Shown piece by piece: positions 16,992 through 25,334 of a DNA stretch of 34,349 nucleotides. The stretch is from contig JAFAKN010000410.1 in NCBI GenBank assembly GCA_019235415.1, positions 1 to 34,349 on the forward strand, given 5' to 3'. The translations under genes and the position numbers were made by a program. The first letter of the stretch is position 1. Every line of letters starts with the position of its first letter. The notes beneath the pieces are model-generated. The model was given only the letters and a program-made list of their open reading frames with translations. It ran no database searches and was not told the DNA's origin. This DNA comes from Alphaproteobacteria bacterium. Its GTDB lineage: Bacteria > Pseudomonadota > Alphaproteobacteria > Reyranellales > Reyranellaceae.

Positions 16992-17155
16992 CTACGGCAC
17001 AAGCGCGGCCTTGGCGACCACGGTGCGCCGCTCGATGAGGCGGAAGCCGTCGACCCAATCGGTGAGGTCCAAGGTGCCGGCGACGGTGGCGCGCAGCTTG
17101 TCTTCGGTGAGCCAGCTCCCATCGCCTTGCCGACTTCGATGGCCGTGAGGCCGGA
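16992..17155 (-). pseudogene. Deletion remnant of an NADPH:quinone oxidoreductase gene
   Basis: On the minus strand 17155 to ~17117 encodes SGLTAIEVGKAMG, identical to residues 152-164 of the intact oxidoreductase at 17616-18638. It is joined out of frame to a segment (~17116-16992) reading WLTEDKLRATVAGTLDLTDW... through ...VVAKAALVP-stop, which matches residues 301-340 of the same protein with scattered changes. About 135 codons between the two segments are missing, and nothing of residues 1-151 is left. It is a decayed tandem copy, not a gene. Confidence 0.85.
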
Positions 17156-17182
17156 GCGACAGCTTCCGCGACCCTCTGAAGC

Positions 17183-17551
17183 TCACGCGGGCCGCGCTGC
17201 TGCAGCTGGCCGACTGGCTGTCGCAAAGGGACCCTCGTCGGCCGCTGTGGCTGAAGATCGGTGCACGGGTCTCGCAACCATCAGCGAGCCGAACGCCACC
17301 ACCTTCCCCTTGTCGAAGGTCATGCTGAAGCGGGCGTAGTCGTTGCTTACCCAGGTGTCGACTTCGAGAGTGCCGGACCAGTCGAAGCGGCGTTCGGTCT
17401 GCTCGGTGCAGGTCCGCCGCCACAGCTGGCCCTCTTGATCGACGCGGAGGAAATGTTCGGCGTACCCTCCGAACTGGGGAGTGGTGCAGTTGTCTCGCGA
17501 GATCGCATCCAGCGCCGTTGGCAAGCGGCAGTCAAAGGCCATGCGGTCCAT
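17183..17551 (-). CDS. Small hypothetical protein between the two oxidoreductase copies
   Basis: A 122-residue frame. The first ~90 residues look like a folded protein (CRLPTALDAISRDNC, QFGGYAEHFLRVDQEG, LWRRTCTEQTERRFDWSG, YARFSMTFDKGKVVAFG), with three Cys in the N-terminal half. The last ~30 residues (after GSLMVAR) are Ala/Pro/Arg-rich and may be read-through into scar sequence next to the pseudogene, so the original C-terminus could be lost. No signal peptide and no recognisable family; no clear ribosome-binding site at ATG 17551. Moderately likely to be real, possibly truncated. Confidence 0.5.
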   Translation of the reverse strand: MDRMAFDCRLPTALDAISRDNCTTPQFGGYAEHFLRVDQEGQLWRRTCTEQTERRFDWSGTLEVDTWVSNDYARFSMTFDKGKVVAFGSLMVARPVHRSSATAADEGPFATASRPAAAARPA

Positions 17552-17615: not shown

Positions 17616-18638
17616 CTAGGGCACCAGCACGGCCTTGCCGACCACGGTGCGCTGTTCGATCAGCCGGAAGCCGTCGATCCAGTCGGCAAGGTCGAAGGTG
17701 CCGGCGATGGTGGCGCGTAGCTTGTCCTCGGTGAACCAGCGGATCAGCACGTCTTGCGCCTCCCTCACCATCGCGCGGCGCCGCGCCAGGGACGCGGCTT
17801 CACGCGGGGTCGGCGCCGACTTGCCGCCCCAGCCGTTGTAGTAGCCGTAGTAGAAGCCGATCACCGTCACGTTCTTGACCAGCAGGATGTTGGCCGGGAT
17901 CTGCGGGATGGTGCCGCTGGCGAAGCCCATCGGGATAAGGCGGCCTTCCGGGGCGATGCAGCGCAGAGAGATGTCGAAGGCCGAGCCGCCCACCGGATCG
18001 TAGATCACATCGGCACCGCGGCCGTCGGTCAGCTCCAGCACGCGCGCCCGCAGGTCCTCGCGGCGGTAGTCGATCAGGTGATCGGCGCCGTGCTCCAGCG
18101 CCGCCTTGAGCTTGTCGTTGCCACCCGCCGAGGCGATCACGATGGCGCCCATCGCCTTGCCGACCTCGATGGCGGTGAGACCCGAGCCGCCGCCCGCGCC
18201 GTGCACCAGCAGCACCTCGCGGGGCTGCATGTCGGCCTTCCACTTCAGCGCGCCGTAGGCCGTCGGATAGAGCGTCGGGAAATTCGTCGCCTGGGCGTAG
18301 GGCATCGTTTCGGGGATCGGGATGGCGTTGACGGCGAGCGCGGTGGCGTATTCGGCATAAGCGCCTTGGCTGACGCCCACCGCGATGCGATCTCCCACAG
18401 CCACGTTAGTGACGCCGGGGCCGAGCTTCATCACGTGTCCGGCCAGCTCGTTGCCCGGTACGTAGGGCAGGTTCGGCTTGTTCTGATGCTTGCCCTGTAC
18501 GCCCAGCATCGCAGCGAAGCTCACACCCGCGGCGCCGACGCGAACCAGGACCTCGCCTGCCTTGGGTTCAGGTATTGGCACATCCTCGATTTTCAGATCG
18601 TCGATGAGACCATAGGCGTGACACACGAGCGCGCGCAT
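17616..18638 (-). CDS. NADPH:quinone oxidoreductase (zinc-independent MDR family)
   Basis: A 340-residue medium-chain reductase of the quinone oxidoreductase (QOR/zeta-crystallin) type. The GroES-like N-terminal domain contains PYVPGNELAGHV (about 58-69) and GVSQGAYAEYA. The Rossmann domain has VHGAGGGSGLTAIEVGKAMGA (about 145-165) and YDPVGGSAFD. No structural-zinc Cys cluster is present. It probably reduces quinones or enoyl/enone substrates with NADPH in the cytosol. ATG 18638 is chosen because MRALVCHAYG is the usual family start; it lies 71 bases inside the upstream RnfD-like frame on the same strand, an unusually long overlap. A broken copy lies downstream at 16992-17155. Confidence 0.93.
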   Translation of the reverse strand: MRALVCHAYGLIDDLKIEDVPIPEPKAGEVLVRVGAAGVSFAAMLGVQGKHQNKPNLPYVPGNELAGHVMKLGPGVTNVAVGDRIAVGVSQGAYAEYATALAVNAIPIPETMPYAQATNFPTLYPTAYGALKWKADMQPREVLLVHGAGGGSGLTAIEVGKAMGAIVIASAGGNDKLKAALEHGADHLIDYRREDLRARVLELTDGRGADVIYDPVGGSAFDISLRCIAPEGRLIPMGFASGTIPQIPANILLVKNVTVIGFYYGYYNGWGGKSAPTPREAASLARRRAMVREAQDVLIRWFTEDKLRATIAGTFDLADWIDGFRLIEQRTVVGKAVLVP

Positions 18639-19479
18639 GAAGTTCCCTGGCGATGGACGCGACAGGGGCCGCCATGGTCGCTGGCTGCAGTCGCCACTGA
18701 TGCTTGGCTCCCGGTCGCAACCAGTCGAGCAAAGGCACCAGAGGCGAGAGCAGGAACAGCGCCCACACCGGCCCTCCATTGCGATACCAGACGAATTGCC
18801 AGCTGAAGGCAAGTGCCGCAACGAGCGCCGCATAGAGCCAGCGCATGCGCCGGTCGTTGGGCGTGGTCATCGGATCGGTGATCATGAAGAACGTGAACAG
18901 CAGCAGGCCGCCCGAGCTCAGCTGGTGGAGCAGGACGGCCCAACGCTGATCGAGCCACAGCACACGTCCCAGCAGCAGGGCGCCGTAGCAGGCGAGAAAG
19001 GCCCAGGCGATATCGAAGCGCTTGGCCGAAAGCGTGACGGTCACGCCCAGCGCCACGAACCACATGCCGGCAACGATGTCCGATCCCCATTGGCCGGGCG
19101 ACAGCCAGGCTCCAGGCAGGAACACCACGGCGACGATCACCCCGAGATTGGCCGGGTTGAAGACGTGCTTGCCGCGGATGCGCACGACGAACTTGGCGCT
19201 GATGGCGAACGCGGCGACCAGCGGATGGACCCAGAGCGTGTCGGCCCGCACCAGCACGGAGAGTCCGATGCCCGTGACGATGGCGCTGAGGTAGCCGACA
19301 TCTTTTAGCCCGAGCACGCGCATCCAGGCCCATTGGGCGGCGATGGCGCCGGCAAAGCACAGAGCCGACTGTTCCCAGCGAAGCTCGAAGTCGCGGAGAA
19401 GCGACCCGAACAGCAATAGGCCGCCGACGGCACCGATCTGCAGCCAGCGCGCGTCGAGACTGGCTGGAGCGGCACGCAC
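18568..19479 (-). CDS. RnfD/NqrB-like (UnbU-type) membrane protein
   Basis: A 303-residue polytopic membrane protein with about eight to nine hydrophobic segments. The stretches GKHVFNPANLGVIVAVVF and SSGGLLLFTFFMITDPMTTP are those of the RnfD/NqrB/UnbU group, which in Rnf and Nqr bind flavin and pass electrons across the membrane. No S/T-G-A-T flavinylation motif is visible, and no other rnf or nqr gene is nearby, so it is not part of a normal Rnf complex. The start is GTG 19479, one base after the stop of the DUF2330 gene, so the two are coupled. The last ~25 residues (RARVSRLWSHRR...) overlap the start of the oxidoreductase and look non-native; a lost stop codon is possible. Confidence 0.8.
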   Translation of the reverse strand: MRAAPASLDARWLQIGAVGGLLLFGSLLRDFELRWEQSALCFAGAIAAQWAWMRVLGLKDVGYLSAIVTGIGLSVLVRADTLWVHPLVAAFAISAKFVVRIRGKHVFNPANLGVIVAVVFLPGAWLSPGQWGSDIVAGMWFVALGVTVTLSAKRFDIAWAFLACYGALLLGRVLWLDQRWAVLLHQLSSGGLLLFTFFMITDPMTTPNDRRMRWLYAALVAALAFSWQFVWYRNGGPVWALFLLSPLVPLLDWLRPGAKHQWRLQPATMAAPVASIARELHARARVSRLWSHRRSENRGCANT

Positions 19480-19480
19480 C

Positions 19481-20776
19481 CTATGGCACCTGCTTGTCCG
19501 CCGGCTTCAGCACCGAGCGTTTGGGCAGCCAGGCGCGGATATCGCTGAGGTTCCACCCGGTGAGTCGTGCCAGCGCGCGCGCCTCCTGGTCCTCGCGCTG
19601 GCTGACCTCTTGGAAGTAGGTCGCGGCGGCCTCGCACTGGAGTGGGCTGCCGCTCCAGGGATGCCGCAGGATGTACCGGGCCTGAAAATTGTCCCGATCG
19701 CCCGTCTCCTGAAGCATGAGGTCTTCCGGGAAGCTCTCGGGCGTGTAGCGAAGGTGCAGCCGGGTAACGATGACCGAGGCGTTGCGAACCCTCGCGCCCC
19801 GACCGTCGGCGATCCAGCCGGCGCCTGCGGCGGCGATTTCGTTGTCGGTCGGCGGAGGGGCGGCGCACGGGTCGCACCAGCTCGAGTCCCAGGCGTATTC
19901 GGTGAAAACCGTGCGGTAGTTGTCCGCCTTGGCCAGGCGCACGAACATGGTCTTGTAGAAGTTCTTGAAGATCGCCTGGTCGCGGACATAGACCGGAAGC
20001 GCCACGTCGGTCGGCATCTTGACCGTGCGATAGTTCGACGCCTCGACCCGTCCGCTTCTGGTCAGGGTGTAGACGATCAGGTCCTGCGGGCCCTTGGCGT
20101 TCAACATGCCGAGCCGCATGGGCAGCATGAACTTCTCGCTGTCGAACGAGAATTGCAGGGGGCTGAGAAATTGCGTGCCGCCCTTTGCGTGCTCCTTGAG
20201 GTTGACCTTGGCGACGAAGAACTTCATGCCCTGCCGCACGTAGGGCCGCAGCGCCGCGCTCGCGCCTTTGGGGATGTTGTAGCCGTTCCGCGTCAGCCAG
20301 GTTTCGAGCGCGTCCGACTCCTGGGCGGACAGGATGACGATGTCGTATTCGCCGACGGTGAAGAATGCCTCGACCTTCACCAAAGGCGCGACCGCGGTGC
20401 CGGCCCTGGCGACGGCGGCGACCGGTGCCGGAGGTGGAGGAGGAATTCTCTCTACGCAGGGATCGTCGTCGCGGTATTCAACCAGGCGAGGGGCGGTGTA
20501 GCTGTCCAGGTGCTCGAAGATCTTCTGGTCGAGCACCTTGACGTCGTTCTTCTTGAGAACCACCGGCACGGGGACGACCAAGGCGAATTCCGTCGGTTCG
20601 CCACGATAGTCGTTGCGCATCGAGATTGTCGTTCGCTGCCCGTCGCGTGCGAGAATGATCTGGCTGGATTCGTTGAACAGCGAGGAGTCGGCCTTGCCGA
20701 CATAGAAGCCGCAGAACGCCTGTGCCTGCAGCGGCGCGACCAGCAACGCCAAGAGTGCAAGAACCCACTTCGGCAT
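19481..20776 (-). CDS. DUF2330 domain protein, secreted
   Basis: A 431-residue protein with a clear signal peptide (MPKWVLALLALLVAPLQAQA, cleavage before FCGFYVG). The body shows the DUF2330 pattern: SSQIILARDGQRTTISMRNDY, FALVVPVPVVLKKNDVKVL, a Pro-rich linker (PPPPPAPVA, about 112-120), then FFTVGEYDIVILSAQES and LRPYVRQGMKFFVAKVN. The function of DUF2330 is unknown. ATG 20776 has a strong GGGGAGG. Only one base separates it from the RnfD-like gene, so the secreted protein and the membrane protein are very likely partners. Confidence 0.88.
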   Translation of the reverse strand: MPKWVLALLALLVAPLQAQAFCGFYVGKADSSLFNESSQIILARDGQRTTISMRNDYRGEPTEFALVVPVPVVLKKNDVKVLDQKIFEHLDSYTAPRLVEYRDDDPCVERIPPPPPAPVAAVARAGTAVAPLVKVEAFFTVGEYDIVILSAQESDALETWLTRNGYNIPKGASAALRPYVRQGMKFFVAKVNLKEHAKGGTQFLSPLQFSFDSEKFMLPMRLGMLNAKGPQDLIVYTLTRSGRVEASNYRTVKMPTDVALPVYVRDQAIFKNFYKTMFVRLAKADNYRTVFTEYAWDSSWCDPCAAPPPTDNEIAAAGAGWIADGRGARVRNASVIVTRLHLRYTPESFPEDLMLQETGDRDNFQARYILRHPWSGSPLQCEAAATYFQEVSQREDQEARALARLTGWNLSDIRAWLPKRSVLKPADKQVP

Positions 20777-21680: not shown

Positions 21681-22154
21681 TCAGGACAATGTCGGCCACG
21701 CGTACGGCACGTCGGCCGAGTCGATGGGCTTGCGGTCCGATTCGGCGGGATCGTTCGGCAGGTCCGAGCAGTTCGCGATGATCGACGTGCCGGGTGCCAG
21801 CCCCTGCACGCCGTACCACAGGAACGGCGGGATGGTGAGCAAGGCGTAGTCGCCTTCGCTCTCGCCGAGCCGATATTCTTCGAGCTTGCCGAAGCTCGCG
21901 CTGCCCGCACGGTCATCGTAGATGACGACCCGGATGGCTCCCGATGGGACCGCGTAGTTGAGCGTCTTCTCGCGGTGTCGGTACCAGCCCTTCACCTTGC
22001 CGAAATGCACGCCCGAGAAATAGATCTCGCCGAAGGCGGCAAAGTGCGGGTCGTCACGCCGCAGCATGTGCATTGTCCGGCCGCGCTCGTCCACGAACTG
22101 GCGCAGCGCATGGCGGACGACGCCGTCAATCACGACCGGCGGCTTTCCAGGCAT
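21681..22154 (-). CDS. RmlC-like cupin (sugar-nucleotide 3,5-epimerase relative)
   Basis: A 157-residue cupin of the dTDP-4-dehydrorhamnose 3,5-epimerase superfamily (FGEIYFSGVHFGKVKGWYRH, LNYAVPSGAIRVVIYDDR, IPPFLWYGVQGLAPGTSIIANCSD). In true RmlC the catalytic His is in RGLH; here the aligned stretch reads KGWY-R-H, so the His is shifted or lost and the reaction may differ. As last gene after rfbF and rfbG it should act on the CDP-4-keto-6-deoxyhexose they make, comparable to the RmlC-like 5-epimerase of CDP-ascarylose pathways. ATG 22154 overlaps rfbG by 29 bases; GTG 22133 is a possible shorter start. Confidence 0.82.
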   Translation of the reverse strand: MPGKPPVVIDGVVRHALRQFVDERGRTMHMLRRDDPHFAAFGEIYFSGVHFGKVKGWYRHREKTLNYAVPSGAIRVVIYDDRAGSASFGKLEEYRLGESEGDYALLTIPPFLWYGVQGLAPGTSIIANCSDLPNDPAESDRKPIDSADVPYAWPTLS

Positions 22155-23205
22155 GGTTGTACTTTTCGATCTGCGACTCGGTCAGCGCTGCGATCTCGGC
22201 CCCTTCCACGTAGCGCCGGTACCAGCCCACGGTCTCGCCGATCGAATCAGGGTAGTTCCAGGTCGGGCTCCAATGCAGGTAGTGACTCGCCCGGTCGCAA
22301 TTGAGCTGCAGCCAGTGATCCTCGTGCGGCGCATTGGGATCGCGCTGGATGTTCACCTTGCCGCTTCCCCACAGGCGGATGACGTCCTGCACCACCTCGC
22401 CGACATTCTTGTTGGCGCTGTTGTTGGGGCCGAAATTCCAGCTCTTGCAGAACTCGGCGCCCTTGCCGCCGCCAAGATGCCGTCCCAGATGGAGATAGCC
22501 GCCCAGCGGCTCGAGCACGTGCTGCCACGGGCGCGTCGACTCCGGATGGTGGATCTCGATCGACTCCTTCTTGCGCAGGGCCCGGATGCAATCGGGGATC
22601 AGCCGGTCCTTCGCCCAATCTCCGCCGCCGATGACGTTGCCGGCGCGGGTCGAGGCTGCCTTCAGTCGATCGATCTTGGAAAGGAACGACGTCCAGTAGG
22701 CGTCGAACACGAGCTCGGCGCAGCCCTTGGAGGCGCTGTAGGGATCACGCCCGCCCAGCGCGTCGGTCTCGCGATAGCCCCACTCCCAGTCGACGTTGCG
22801 GTAGCACTTGTCCGACGTGATGTAGACCAAGGTGCCGACACTCTCGACCTTGCGGACCGCCTCGCAGACGTTCACGCCGCCCATCACGTTGGTGCCGAAG
22901 GTGCCGCTGGGATCGCGATAGGCTTCGCGCACCAGCGCCTGCGCGGCGAGATGGAACACGATGTCTGGCTTGGCTTCGGCCATCGTGCGCGCGAGGCGCT
23001 CGGCATCGCGCACGTCGCCTTCAACGTGCCGGATCTTCTTGGCCAGCCCGAGCAATTCGAAATGGCTTTCGTCGTAGGCCGGCGGCAGGGCATATCCAGT
23101 CACCTCCGCGCCCAGCTTGAGCAGCCACGTCGACAGCCACGAGCCCTTGAAGCCGGTATGGCCAGTCACGAAGACTTTCTTGCCTTGATAATAATTTCCG
23201 AACAT
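22126..23205 (-). CDS. rfbG: CDP-glucose 4,6-dehydratase
   Basis: A 359-residue extended SDR. The NAD motif is TGHTGFKGSW (14-23), then HLAAQALVREAYRDP, SDKCY (131-135) and the catalytic Y156-xxx-K160 (DPYSASKG). The wording TGHTGFKGSWL and YITSDKCYRN is that of CDP-glucose 4,6-dehydratase rather than the dTDP enzyme. It converts CDP-glucose to CDP-4-keto-6-deoxyglucose. It follows rfbF by 24 bases, giving the complete entry to CDP-deoxysugars. Confidence 0.95.
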   Translation of the reverse strand: MFGNYYQGKKVFVTGHTGFKGSWLSTWLLKLGAEVTGYALPPAYDESHFELLGLAKKIRHVEGDVRDAERLARTMAEAKPDIVFHLAAQALVREAYRDPSGTFGTNVMGGVNVCEAVRKVESVGTLVYITSDKCYRNVDWEWGYRETDALGGRDPYSASKGCAELVFDAYWTSFLSKIDRLKAASTRAGNVIGGGDWAKDRLIPDCIRALRKKESIEIHHPESTRPWQHVLEPLGGYLHLGRHLGGGKGAEFCKSWNFGPNNSANKNVGEVVQDVIRLWGSGKVNIQRDPNAPHEDHWLQLNCDRASHYLHWSPTWNYPDSIGETVGWYRRYVEGAEIAALTESQIEKYNHAWKAAGRD

Positions 23206-23229
23206 GGGTCTCTCGCTCTGGCAGTGCGG

Positions 23230-24036
23230 TCACGCGTTGAGGTTTTGCGACGGCGGGGGCGTCAGCTTGTCGAGTCGCCAGGGCGCCTTGTCCGTGTCCC
23301 ACATCTTGTTCAGGTCCTCCACGTCCTTCTTCATGTCCATGCACTTCCAGAAGCCGTCGTGGCGATAGGCCATGAGCTGGCCATCCTTGGCGGCCTGCTC
23401 CAGGGGCTCGCGTTCCAGCACCGTGCTGCTCGACTCGATGTATTTCAGGAAAGCCGGTTCCATCACGAAGAACCCGCCGTTGATCCAGCCTTCGCTGTCG
23501 ATGGGCTTCTCGCGGAACGCGTTCACCTGATTGTTGACGCCGGTCTCGACCACGCCGAACCGTGCCGACGGCCGTGCCAACGTCATGGTGACGAGCTTGC
23601 CGTGCGACTTGTGGAACTCGACCAGCTTGGGGATGTCGACGTTGCTGACGCCGTCACCGTAGGTGCACATGAAGGTCTCGTACTTCAGGATCGGCGCCAG
23701 GCGCCGCAGCCGTCCACCGGTCATCGTGTTCAGCCCGGTGTTCATCAGCATCACCTTCCAATCGAGGATGGGACGGTTGATGGTCGATTTCTCGCCGGTC
23801 GTCATGTCGATCGAGAAGTCGGAGTGGAGCGTGTAGTAGTTGAGGAAGTACGACTTGACGGTGTCGGCCTTGTAACCCAGCGCGAGCACGAAGTCCTTGT
23901 AGCCATAGTGGGCGTAGATCCCCATGATGTGCATCAGCATCGGCGTGCCGCCGATCGGTACCATGGGCTTGGGAATGTCGTCGGTATATTCCGACAGTCT
24001 CGTGCCGAAGCCACCGGCCAGGATCACGGTCTTCAT
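23230..24036 (-). CDS. rfbF: Glucose-1-phosphate cytidylyltransferase
   Basis: A 268-residue nucleotidyltransferase. The signature ILAGGFGTRLSEYTDDIPKP (5-24) contains the nucleotide-binding G-G-x-G-T-R-L. The product also has MGIYAHYGYKDFVLALGYK, the cytidylyltransferase insert LHSDFSIDM...., TYGDGVSN, and the C-terminal WKCMDMKKDVEDLNKMW. It makes CDP-glucose from CTP and glucose 1-phosphate. ATG 24036 has GGGGAG upstream and lies two bases after the MFS stop. An in-frame extension upstream of 24036 is antisense-like noise inside the MFS gene. Confidence 0.95.
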   Translation of the reverse strand: MKTVILAGGFGTRLSEYTDDIPKPMVPIGGTPMLMHIMGIYAHYGYKDFVLALGYKADTVKSYFLNYYTLHSDFSIDMTTGEKSTINRPILDWKVMLMNTGLNTMTGGRLRRLAPILKYETFMCTYGDGVSNVDIPKLVEFHKSHGKLVTMTLARPSARFGVVETGVNNQVNAFREKPIDSEGWINGGFFVMEPAFLKYIESSSTVLEREPLEQAAKDGQLMAYRHDGFWKCMDMKKDVEDLNKMWDTDKAPWRLDKLTPPPSQNLNA

Positions 24037-24038
24037 CG

Positions 24039-25334
24039 TCAAGCTCCCCGCTGGGTTGAAGATCTGAGGATTTGCAGCCCGAAGACGAGCGCACTGAGCG
24101 TCATCAGGGCAAGCGCTACGAAGATCGGCGAGCCGGCGGCGAGCTCTTCGAGGCCGCCGCCGAGAACAGAAATCGAGCCGAACGACAGCGAGTTGATGGC
24201 CGCGGTTATGCCCATTACCTCGCCCTTGGTCTCCTCTGTCGCCGTATCGGTGAACAGGATGATGAGCGCCCCGTAGCTCACGGCCGTTGCCACGGAGATC
24301 GGCAGGATGACCACCCATTGCACGCTCATCGAGGGAGCAAGGGCGCTCACGGCGATCAGCGCGGCGGTGGCCACCAGGCTCCAGAACGTGATCGCGCGCG
24401 TCGAGAAGAACTTGGTGAGGAGCGGCATGGCGACGGCGAAGCTCAGGCAGAACCCGACGCCCATGACCGACATGAAGTAGCTGGCCACCCTGCCGCTCGC
24501 GGAATAGCGGTCGAGCAGGAACACCGGAATGAAGTAGAAGTAGGCGCCCCAGGCGAGCTCCTGCAGGAGGAAGACCCACGAGACGTCGCGCAATGCGCCC
24601 GGCCTGGAGAAGGCCGACACGAAGCTCCTGACGCCGCTCAGCAGGGTGAACGGGGCAGCGGCCGCTACGCGCCGACCGCGATCGTGGAACAGCCAGGCCA
24701 GCATCAGCACGTTGATGGCCGCCACCAGTGCCGTGACATAGAGCGGTGTCAGCAGACTGAACCACGGCATGATCTCGGCATCCGACAAAAAGCCGCTGAG
24801 CGCCGGACCGAGGACGAAGCCCGAAGACGAGCACAAAAGGCCCATGCTCAGCCAGAAATCCTTATGCCTGGGCGGGCTGGCATCGACGAGGGCGGCCAGC
24901 GAAACGGCCTGGCTTGCTGCCGTGGCGCCACCGACGAACCGGCCCACCATAAGCAGGGCGACCGATCCCAGGGCAAAGGCGGCAGAGATCGTGATGTAGC
25001 TTGCGACTATGCCGACGGCGCATACCAGCAGGATGGTCTTGCGCCCGAGGCGATCGGAAAGCTGGCCGAGAATCGGCGCGCCCACGAACGTCATGATCGG
25101 ATAGATTCCCGTGCCGATGCCGTACACGAGGGGGCGCTGGGTGGGCGAGAGCCCCACCTGGATGGCGGCGCCCGAGCCCTCGGCCAAGGCCGACGCAAGC
25201 AGGGGCGTCAGCATGGCAAAGCCAACGGCATCGACGAGAATCAAGAGCAGCAGCGGCGACGCGACGAACAGCGTCGAGCGCGAGGCTTGACCGGAGGCCG
25301 CCGCCGAGGCCGGCGCCTCAGAACTTCTTGCCAC
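24039..25334 (-). CDS. MFS transporter (Tet/TCR-like) inside the CDP-sugar operon
   Basis: A 431-residue major facilitator with about 12 hydrophobic segments and motif A GQLSDRLGRKTILL between TM2 and TM3, as in proton-driven drug exporters of the Tet group. GTG 25334 overlaps the last 17 bases of the glycosyltransferase gene, and the stop is two bases before rfbF, so it is embedded in the operon. Cargo is unknown: export of a small glycoside or precursor made by the neighbours is possible. An MFS gene is not a usual component of CDP-sugar loci. Confidence 0.9.
   Translation of the reverse strand: MARSSEAPASAAASGQASRSTLFVASPLLLLILVDAVGFAMLTPLLASALAEGSGAAIQVGLSPTQRPLVYGIGTGIYPIMTFVGAPILGQLSDRLGRKTILLVCAVGIVASYITISAAFALGSVALLMVGRFVGGATAASQAVSLAALVDASPPRHKDFWLSMGLLCSSSGFVLGPALSGFLSDAEIMPWFSLLTPLYVTALVAAINVLMLAWLFHDRGRRVAAAAPFTLLSGVRSFVSAFSRPGALRDVSWVFLLQELAWGAYFYFIPVFLLDRYSASGRVASYFMSVMGVGFCLSFAVAMPLLTKFFSTRAITFWSLVATAALIAVSALAPSMSVQWVVILPISVATAVSYGALIILFTDTATEETKGEVMGITAAINSLSFGSISVLGGGLEELAAGSPIFVALALMTLSALVFGLQILRSSTQRGA

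Follow-up and report, generated by a model that had tools for sequence, protein, structure and literature searches.

What joins an exported protein of the DUF2330 family to an RnfD/NqrB-like membrane protein, encoded one base apart and outside any Rnf or Nqr operon? The question is raised by a gene pair at 18568-20776 of the window, the term used here for the whole stretch of 34,349 nucleotides that was analysed (contig JAFAKN010000410.1, from an alphaproteobacterium of the Reyranellaceae). The exported protein is called D and the membrane protein M in what follows. A sequence-only reading of this DNA had taken the two for a two-part envelope system, possibly serving electron transfer to or through D. 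The M-D pairing was found to be real and widespread, and electron transfer is the best reading of it, unproven and plausible by context.

Recurrence of the M-D pairing

The surroundings of DUF2330 genes were surveyed by a pattern-based scan that took two DUF2330 proteins as seeds and covered a collection of 84,980 species; of 91 confirmed places the best 80 were analysed (L006 duplicates L061 and was excluded from the counts). Both seeds were paired DUF2330 proteins, and the scan therefore favours the paired subfamily. M adjoined D on the same strand in 72/80 loci, mostly at a distance of 70 bases or less and frequently with an overlap. M preceded D in 71 of the 72 paired loci; D stands first in L007 and in the window. 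Three tandem D copies lie behind one M gene at L032, L039 and L050, and since L032 and L050 seem to be a single contig placed in two bins, the labels of metagenome-assembled genomes (MAGs) are unsafe. At the other eight loci D had no adjacent M. Seven of these genomes showed no M at E≤0.001; the eighth locus, L057, is cut by the contig edge, and fragments of M are present at contig edges of that genome. Cultured environmental bacteria that carry the pair include Hellea balneolensis (L035), Litorimonas cladophorae (L062) and Amphiplicatus metriothermophilus (L019).

An independent survey was carried out from the M side. To keep the selection of loci independent of D, three phyla were searched with an M profile (E≤1e-20), and matches were obtained in 29/247 genomes of the phylum of a Thermoanaerobaculia MAG, in 22/264 of that of a Deltaproteobacteria MAG and in 21/345 of that of a Flavobacteriales MAG, two of the centre genomes included. 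Among the 72 new loci, D was adjacent on the same strand in 26/29 loci scoring at least 220 bits and in 0/43 loci of 66-168 bits, the split being chosen after the scores were seen, in a gap from 223 to 168; L202, counted as low-scoring, lies at a contig end and is only half-length. When the two centre loci that carry the pair (L096 and L105, outside the 26/29) are added, the comparison becomes 28/31 against 0/43 (Fisher test, p = 2e-17, with related genomes non-independent and the split set post hoc). As for the three high-scoring exceptions, the genome of L186 (G589) does contain D, but on a different contig (L131); L193 stops some 84 bases short of the contig end, on the side where D would normally lie; and the flanks of L162 are without D. 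The pairing far exceeds chance and is a conserved module across several phyla. It is not peculiar to the genome of the window, and the two-part envelope system proposed from the sequence alone is supported.

M and D share one open reading frame (ORF) in eight genomes. Eight such linkers, that of L049 among them, each hold a signal-like stretch ending in FCG and an internal Met; the ORFs may therefore be read-through products, with D starting or being cleaved at this point, and as proof of permanent fusion they are weakened by the same features.

DUF2330 is rare near the source organism, being present in 2/398 genomes of its phylum, the window's own included, and in the window's own genome only among 101 relatives. 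It was detected in 169/282 sampled genomes, often in multiple copies, of the phylum of a Deltaproteobacteria MAG, taken as Myxococcota. In the M tree the window groups with L007, from a MAG labelled Rhodocyclaceae (support 98/94), and both then join MAGs labelled Elusimicrobia and FW305 (100/99), a grouping that suggests lateral transfer of an apparently mobile pair. The D-adjacent M proteins form a single group with weak support (80/9).

Membrane protein M as a possible electron conduit

M is an RnfD without the loop, of the UnbU or Nqr/Rnf-like kind. The RnfD likeness is upheld by its predicted model (predicted local distance difference test, pLDDT, 90.9), which matched RnfD 8rbq_D at Z 25.2 and 3.2 Å over 248 residues; RnfD/NqrB entries in the fold list reached Z 21-25 and urea and ammonium transporters Z 10-13. 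A profile of 66 aligned M sequences searched against the PDB matched RnfD 8ahx_D (E 3.9e-18). The alignment includes the window and leaves out L049 (one ORF with D) and L010, L024, L034, L059, L060 and L067 (partial or short). The profile match falls in two stretches, the first of them weak (9.3 bits), and it ends at residue 142 and resumes at 210, the break being the linker between the two helix halves. In the 66 M proteins this linker measures 35-41 residues; eight further short-linker proteins have 34-44, and five local RnfD/NqrB proteins 74-112. According to the available text on Clostridium RnfD, linker 140-190 bears flavin mononucleotide (FMN) on Thr153 (PMC9588780). M has the RnfD/NqrB fold, the NP and TDP motifs and most riboflavin-site positions of that family (PF03116), but it differs in the missing FMN-bearing linker and in its DUF2330 partner.

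The flavinylation motif [ST]GA[ST] was present in 0/66 aligned M proteins, as had been read from the window's protein, and in 0/73 aligned D relatives; the window genome, 96.9% complete in 768 contigs, gave no match to ApbE (PF02424). On these grounds flavinylation at the known motif was rejected for both proteins. M is also the sole PF03116 protein above the cut-off in this genome, two further places falling below it. From these two results one would expect no further RnfD/NqrB and no flavinylation by ApbE; the earlier reading had named homologues always accompanied by rnfABCGE as a refuting case, and this did not arise. None of RnfA, B, C, E and G is among the ten window proteins scanned, which agrees with a pair lying outside any Rnf/Nqr operon; they were not searched one by one genome-wide.

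NqrB binds riboflavin through Gly198, Asn200, Thr162, Asp346, Ala205, Phe342 and Asn203, as given in the portion of the paper at hand (PMC10643135). With the register set by motif spacing, five of the seven positions are kept in most M: Asn203 corresponds to N108, Asp346 to D202 and Phe342 to F198 (each 66/66), Ala205 to A110 (56/66) and Gly198 to G103 (46/66). Asn200 is replaced by His105 (66/66) and the Thr162 position is variable. Lys96 is invariant (66/66). With Asn108, Asp202 and Phe198 kept and His105 in place of Asn200, M may well have a flavin pocket, in an altered form.

The closest parallels to M are short-linker proteins with other partners. In the available text on Nqr/Rnf-like two-subunit complexes (PMC8238504, PMC11334425), the membrane domain has no flavinylation site and stands beside one extracytosolic partner, and a modelled, apparently non-covalent flavin site lies near the partner (PMC11334425). 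A local example of this type, the Mesorhizobium protein L088, shares the short linker and the HxxNP motif with M; it adjoins ApbE and an FMN-binding protein and has, by eye, a fused reductase domain. M, unlike these complexes, has PF03116 as its sole Pfam domain, with no fused PF00175 reductase domain, and is accompanied by neither an FMN-binding partner nor ApbE. By eye, L176 and L177 (phylum of the Thermoanaerobaculia MAG) have a short-linker RnfD-like gene beside ApbE-like and FMN-binding-like genes, and the L177 protein (295 residues) is without the fused reductase domain of the published systems. On a Metabacillus plasmid (L089, 4246-5633) a redoxin gene encoding CQAC overlaps a gene for a 265-residue short-linker RnfD-like protein by 4 bases; the redoxin is apparently membrane-anchored and carries CxxC.

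Other short-linker proteins have UnbV-like partners, in an enediyne-type cluster and elsewhere. The comparison with UnbU made in the sequence-only reading was apt; M falls with the short-linker proteins of UnbU and Nqr/Rnf-like type. UnbU is likewise a stand-alone short-linker RnfD-like protein with HxxNP beside an exported partner; M differs from it in being paired with DUF2330 and not with UnbV (FG-GAP/ASPIC), and it belongs to a separate high-scoring group, with the weak tree split given above. An UnbV-like FG-GAP protein was found at 35 of the 43 low-scoring loci and at 0/29 high-scoring loci; two low-scoring loci had an ApbE-like protein and six had neither, each neighbour type being sought with one query protein that had been named by eye. 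At L197, L198 and L199 an M-type RnfD-like domain and FG-GAP/UnbV-type repeats occupy one ORF. No redox activity is known for UnbV. A literature search on UnbU gave no account linking it to the DUF2330 pair.

The cysteines of D were counted in 87 DUF2330 copies of at least 400 residues, 73 of which form the aligned set. Five of them (22, 107, 301, 304 and 381) are invariant in 87/87 copies, as are F21 and G23 beside Cys22; exactly five cysteines occur from residue 16 onward in 67/73 aligned relatives. As five is an odd number, at least one may be unpaired.

By analogy with the short-linker and Nqr/Rnf-like systems, M is tentatively read as a transmembrane electron conduit to D within a two-component envelope module, a reading that we favour while holding its chance to be somewhat short of even. 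M would sit in the inner membrane, hold one non-covalent flavin at the former riboflavin site, draw electrons either from the quinol pool or from a donor in the cytoplasm, and deliver them directly to D, docked on its periplasmic side. Most likely this would serve to set the redox state of the D cysteines; downstream, the predicted P35/P49-like fold of D (next section) would point to the binding or trapping of another protein. Support comes from the pairing (72/80), the RnfD fold (Z 25.2), the kept riboflavin positions and the short-linker relatives beside FMN-binding, ApbE or redoxin genes. The electron transfer to DUF2330 suggested earlier is made plausible by the neighbours of these relatives and by the modelled flavin site of the related system.

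Several observations weigh against the conduit. The five cysteines are equally kept in DUF2330 proteins without M within 1.5 kb (phylum of G498, the one with DUF2330 in 169/282 genomes); truncated rows aside, the one departure is at Cys381, in two L149 copies. They therefore belong to DUF2330 at large and not to the pair, and conserved cysteines as electron acceptors peculiar to the M pairing were rejected. Seven genomes hold D without any detected M, UnbV is the commonest partner of low-scoring M relatives, and a donor, reductase domain or redox gene recurring beside the pair across phyla was not found among the neighbours listed, part of the genes at 21 diverse loci included. M itself has no conserved cysteine (best column 24/66). 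Two riboflavin ligands are changed, and the register to Vibrio cholerae NqrB rests on how the motifs are spaced in local NqrB proteins, without use of the V. cholerae sequence itself. As a test, [ST]GA[ST] is imperfect, the motif being exact in 3/5 local long proteins (L113 has AGAT; none was seen in L119).

These points bear on a rival that we consider unlikely but the strongest of the alternatives, namely that M is a redox-dead RnfD relative that docks exported partners such as DUF2330 and UnbV at the membrane, chaperones them or gates their release. Flavin chemistry would then have been lost with the FMN loop, and the conserved residues would merely hold the fold. The missing motif (0/66) and ApbE, the UnbV-like proteins beside 35/43 low-scoring loci, the M-D ORFs and M-UnbV fusions and the fold shared with urea and ammonium transporters (Z 10-13) agree with such a role; His105, Asn108, Asp202, Phe198 and Lys96, unchanged in 66/66, suggest instead a kept pocket, and some short-linker relatives do adjoin ApbE, FMN-binding or redoxin genes.

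Predicted likeness of D to baculovirus P35 and P49

The predicted model of D resembles baculovirus P35, a likeness that the sequence-only reading had not anticipated, and D may have a bacterial P35-type fold. Foldseek matched the model to P35 at E 2.4e-4 with TM-scores of 0.25/0.37, and a second aligner gave Z 10.3 at 4.6 Å over 220/281 residues of P35 1i3s_B, with D 36-359 aligned on P35 12-299. All four P35 entries top the D fold list (Z 9.2-10.3; next fold 6.3); absences from such lists carry no weight as evidence. The top three matches in a viral model library were a nucleopolyhedrovirus apoptotic suppressor (which we take to be P49), p49 and P35, the next standing at E 0.2. A DUF2330 profile (73 sequences) searched against all PDB chain sequences, P35 entries among them, gave no match at E≤1, and a sequence link of DUF2330 to any solved protein was rejected on this result.

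In the D model, helix 84-94 and strand 97-102 are followed by the invariant PC and a hypervariable stretch. Columns 103-137 span 35-45 residues in the 73 sequences, steady in length and variable in sequence. A TonB-box-like [IV][IV]VT in this loop occurred in 4/73 sequences and was not retained as a candidate. The loop and Cys22 of D parallel the loop and Cys2 of P35 by sequence order only. P35 is described in the available text as being cleaved in its flexible loop at Asp87, after which Cys2 traps the protease (PMC7863939), and a bacterial protease, gingipain-K, is also reported to be inhibited by P35 (PMC3375223). D differs from P35/P49 in having no sequence match to them, in being bacterial and exported, and in its five cysteines.

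A protease-trap role of D is a lead only. D would be a P35/P49-type envelope trap, in which a cysteine protease cuts the variable loop and the N-terminal cysteine blocks release of the enzyme; M would anchor the trap at the membrane or keep the N-terminal thiol of D reduced. The fold scores and viral-library matches above, a hypervariable loop of near-constant length, Cys22 in 87/87 copies and the P35 precedents of loop cleavage and gingipain-K inhibition speak for it. Against them, DUF2330 matches none of the solved chains by sequence and the TM-scores are low; Z 10.3 is moderately above the 7-8 typical of unmatched models, for a D model of more than 400 residues. By eye the loop has no fixed residue after PC, and function does not follow from a shared fold. 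We regard this role as improbable. Less probable again is its combination with the conduit, a redox-maintained suicide inhibitor in which D, a thiol-armed envelope protease trap of P35/P49 fold, has its N-terminal cysteine recharged by the M flavin conduit, making it a possible cellular relative of viral caspase inhibitors. Least probable of all is a role of M as a channel for small solutes or cations, with D as its exported regulator or binding partner, as the fold shared with urea and ammonium transporters (Z 10-13) is far outscored by the RnfD/NqrB entries (Z 21-25), whose motifs M keeps.

A lower-scoring DUF2330 group (L133-L150) includes several tandem or multi-copy loci, often with longer C-termini and no M within 1.5 kb. 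On a plasmid of Deinococcus sp. QL22 (L087, 3854-5223) a DUF2330 gene is split over several frames and apparently broken. DUF2330 is named in no paper of the library searched, and a search on P35 with bacterial terms gave no account linking P35 to DUF2330.

The locus in the window and its wider meaning

The positions of the pair and its motifs are collected in Table 1. A single base (19480) separates the D stop from the M GTG; the coordinates and the Pfam matches confirm the arrangement described from the sequence. The score of D against PF10092 is 281.2 bits (Pfam gathering score 24.7). By eye, a ribosome-site-like GGGGAGGT lies upstream of the D ATG and AGGTG upstream of the M GTG, and the signal peptide reported earlier for D is recognised as a signal-peptide-like N-terminus.

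Table 1. Coordinates of the D and M genes and of the motifs discussed in the text
Feature	Position	Strand	Remarks
D, DUF2330 protein	19481..20776	-	431 residues, ATG start, exported; PF10092 E 1e-83; model pLDDT 84.6
Predicted D signal peptide, residues 1-20	20717..20776	-	cleavage between AQA and FCG, by eye; Cys22 becomes mature residue 2
D residues 103-133, [DN]PC then hypervariable loop	20378..20470	-	near-constant length; pLDDT <50 at 110-131
D WCDPC, residues 300-304	19865..19879	-	two of the five invariant cysteines
M, RnfD/NqrB-like membrane protein	18568..19479	-	303 residues, GTG start, short-linker type; PF03116 E 1.3e-15
M motif HVFNPAN, residues 105-111	19147..19167	-	place of NqrB riboflavin site; His105 versus NqrB Asn200
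M motif SPGQWG, residues 127-132	19084..19101	-	short linker, where RnfD/NqrB bear the FMN loop
M motif FFMITDPMTTP, residues 197-207	18859..18891	-	Asp202 corresponds to NqrB Asp346

At its 3' end the M gene overlaps the start of a zinc-type oxidoreductase gene (17616-18638, minus strand) by 71 bases (18568-18638), and a three-gene operon is possible. The contig of L007 ends inside M, so the downstream arrangement is not visible there. By eye, the end of an ORF at 16992-17423 (minus strand) repeats the C-terminus of this oxidoreductase (TEDKLRAT...), as a truncated tandem copy. Upstream of the pair (21681-24834, minus strand) lie deoxysugar genes, with a weak dTDP-sugar isomerase match, a GDP-mannose dehydratase match and a nucleotidyltransferase named by eye. 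A promoter and terminator scan gave no signal above shuffles, and identity as a defence system was rejected, PADLOC giving no match.

Neighbour clusters were compared over the DUF2330-found loci (top 45 listed, ten of the largest checked). A common third component was rejected, as the clusters checked were M-D frames, local alphaproteobacterial synteny or inconsistent in position. By eye, this synteny comprises pgsA-like, uvrC and histidine kinase genes at Parvularculaceae-type loci, and gyrA, ssb and SodC-like genes at Robiginitomaculaceae-type loci. At 14 loci of one alphaproteobacterial group (among them L012, L018, L023, L029 and L035) the gene for the SodC-like secreted protein lies 1-4 kb beyond DUF2330, on the other strand.

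The pair would mean that the RnfD/NqrB fold has turned into an inner-membrane module whose exported partners can be exchanged, namely DUF2330, UnbV, FMN-binding proteins and a redoxin. The P35-like model gives DUF2330 a structural lead. No established origin is known for the P35/P49 family of viral inhibitors; if the likeness is real, D would provide that family with a candidate bacterial relative.

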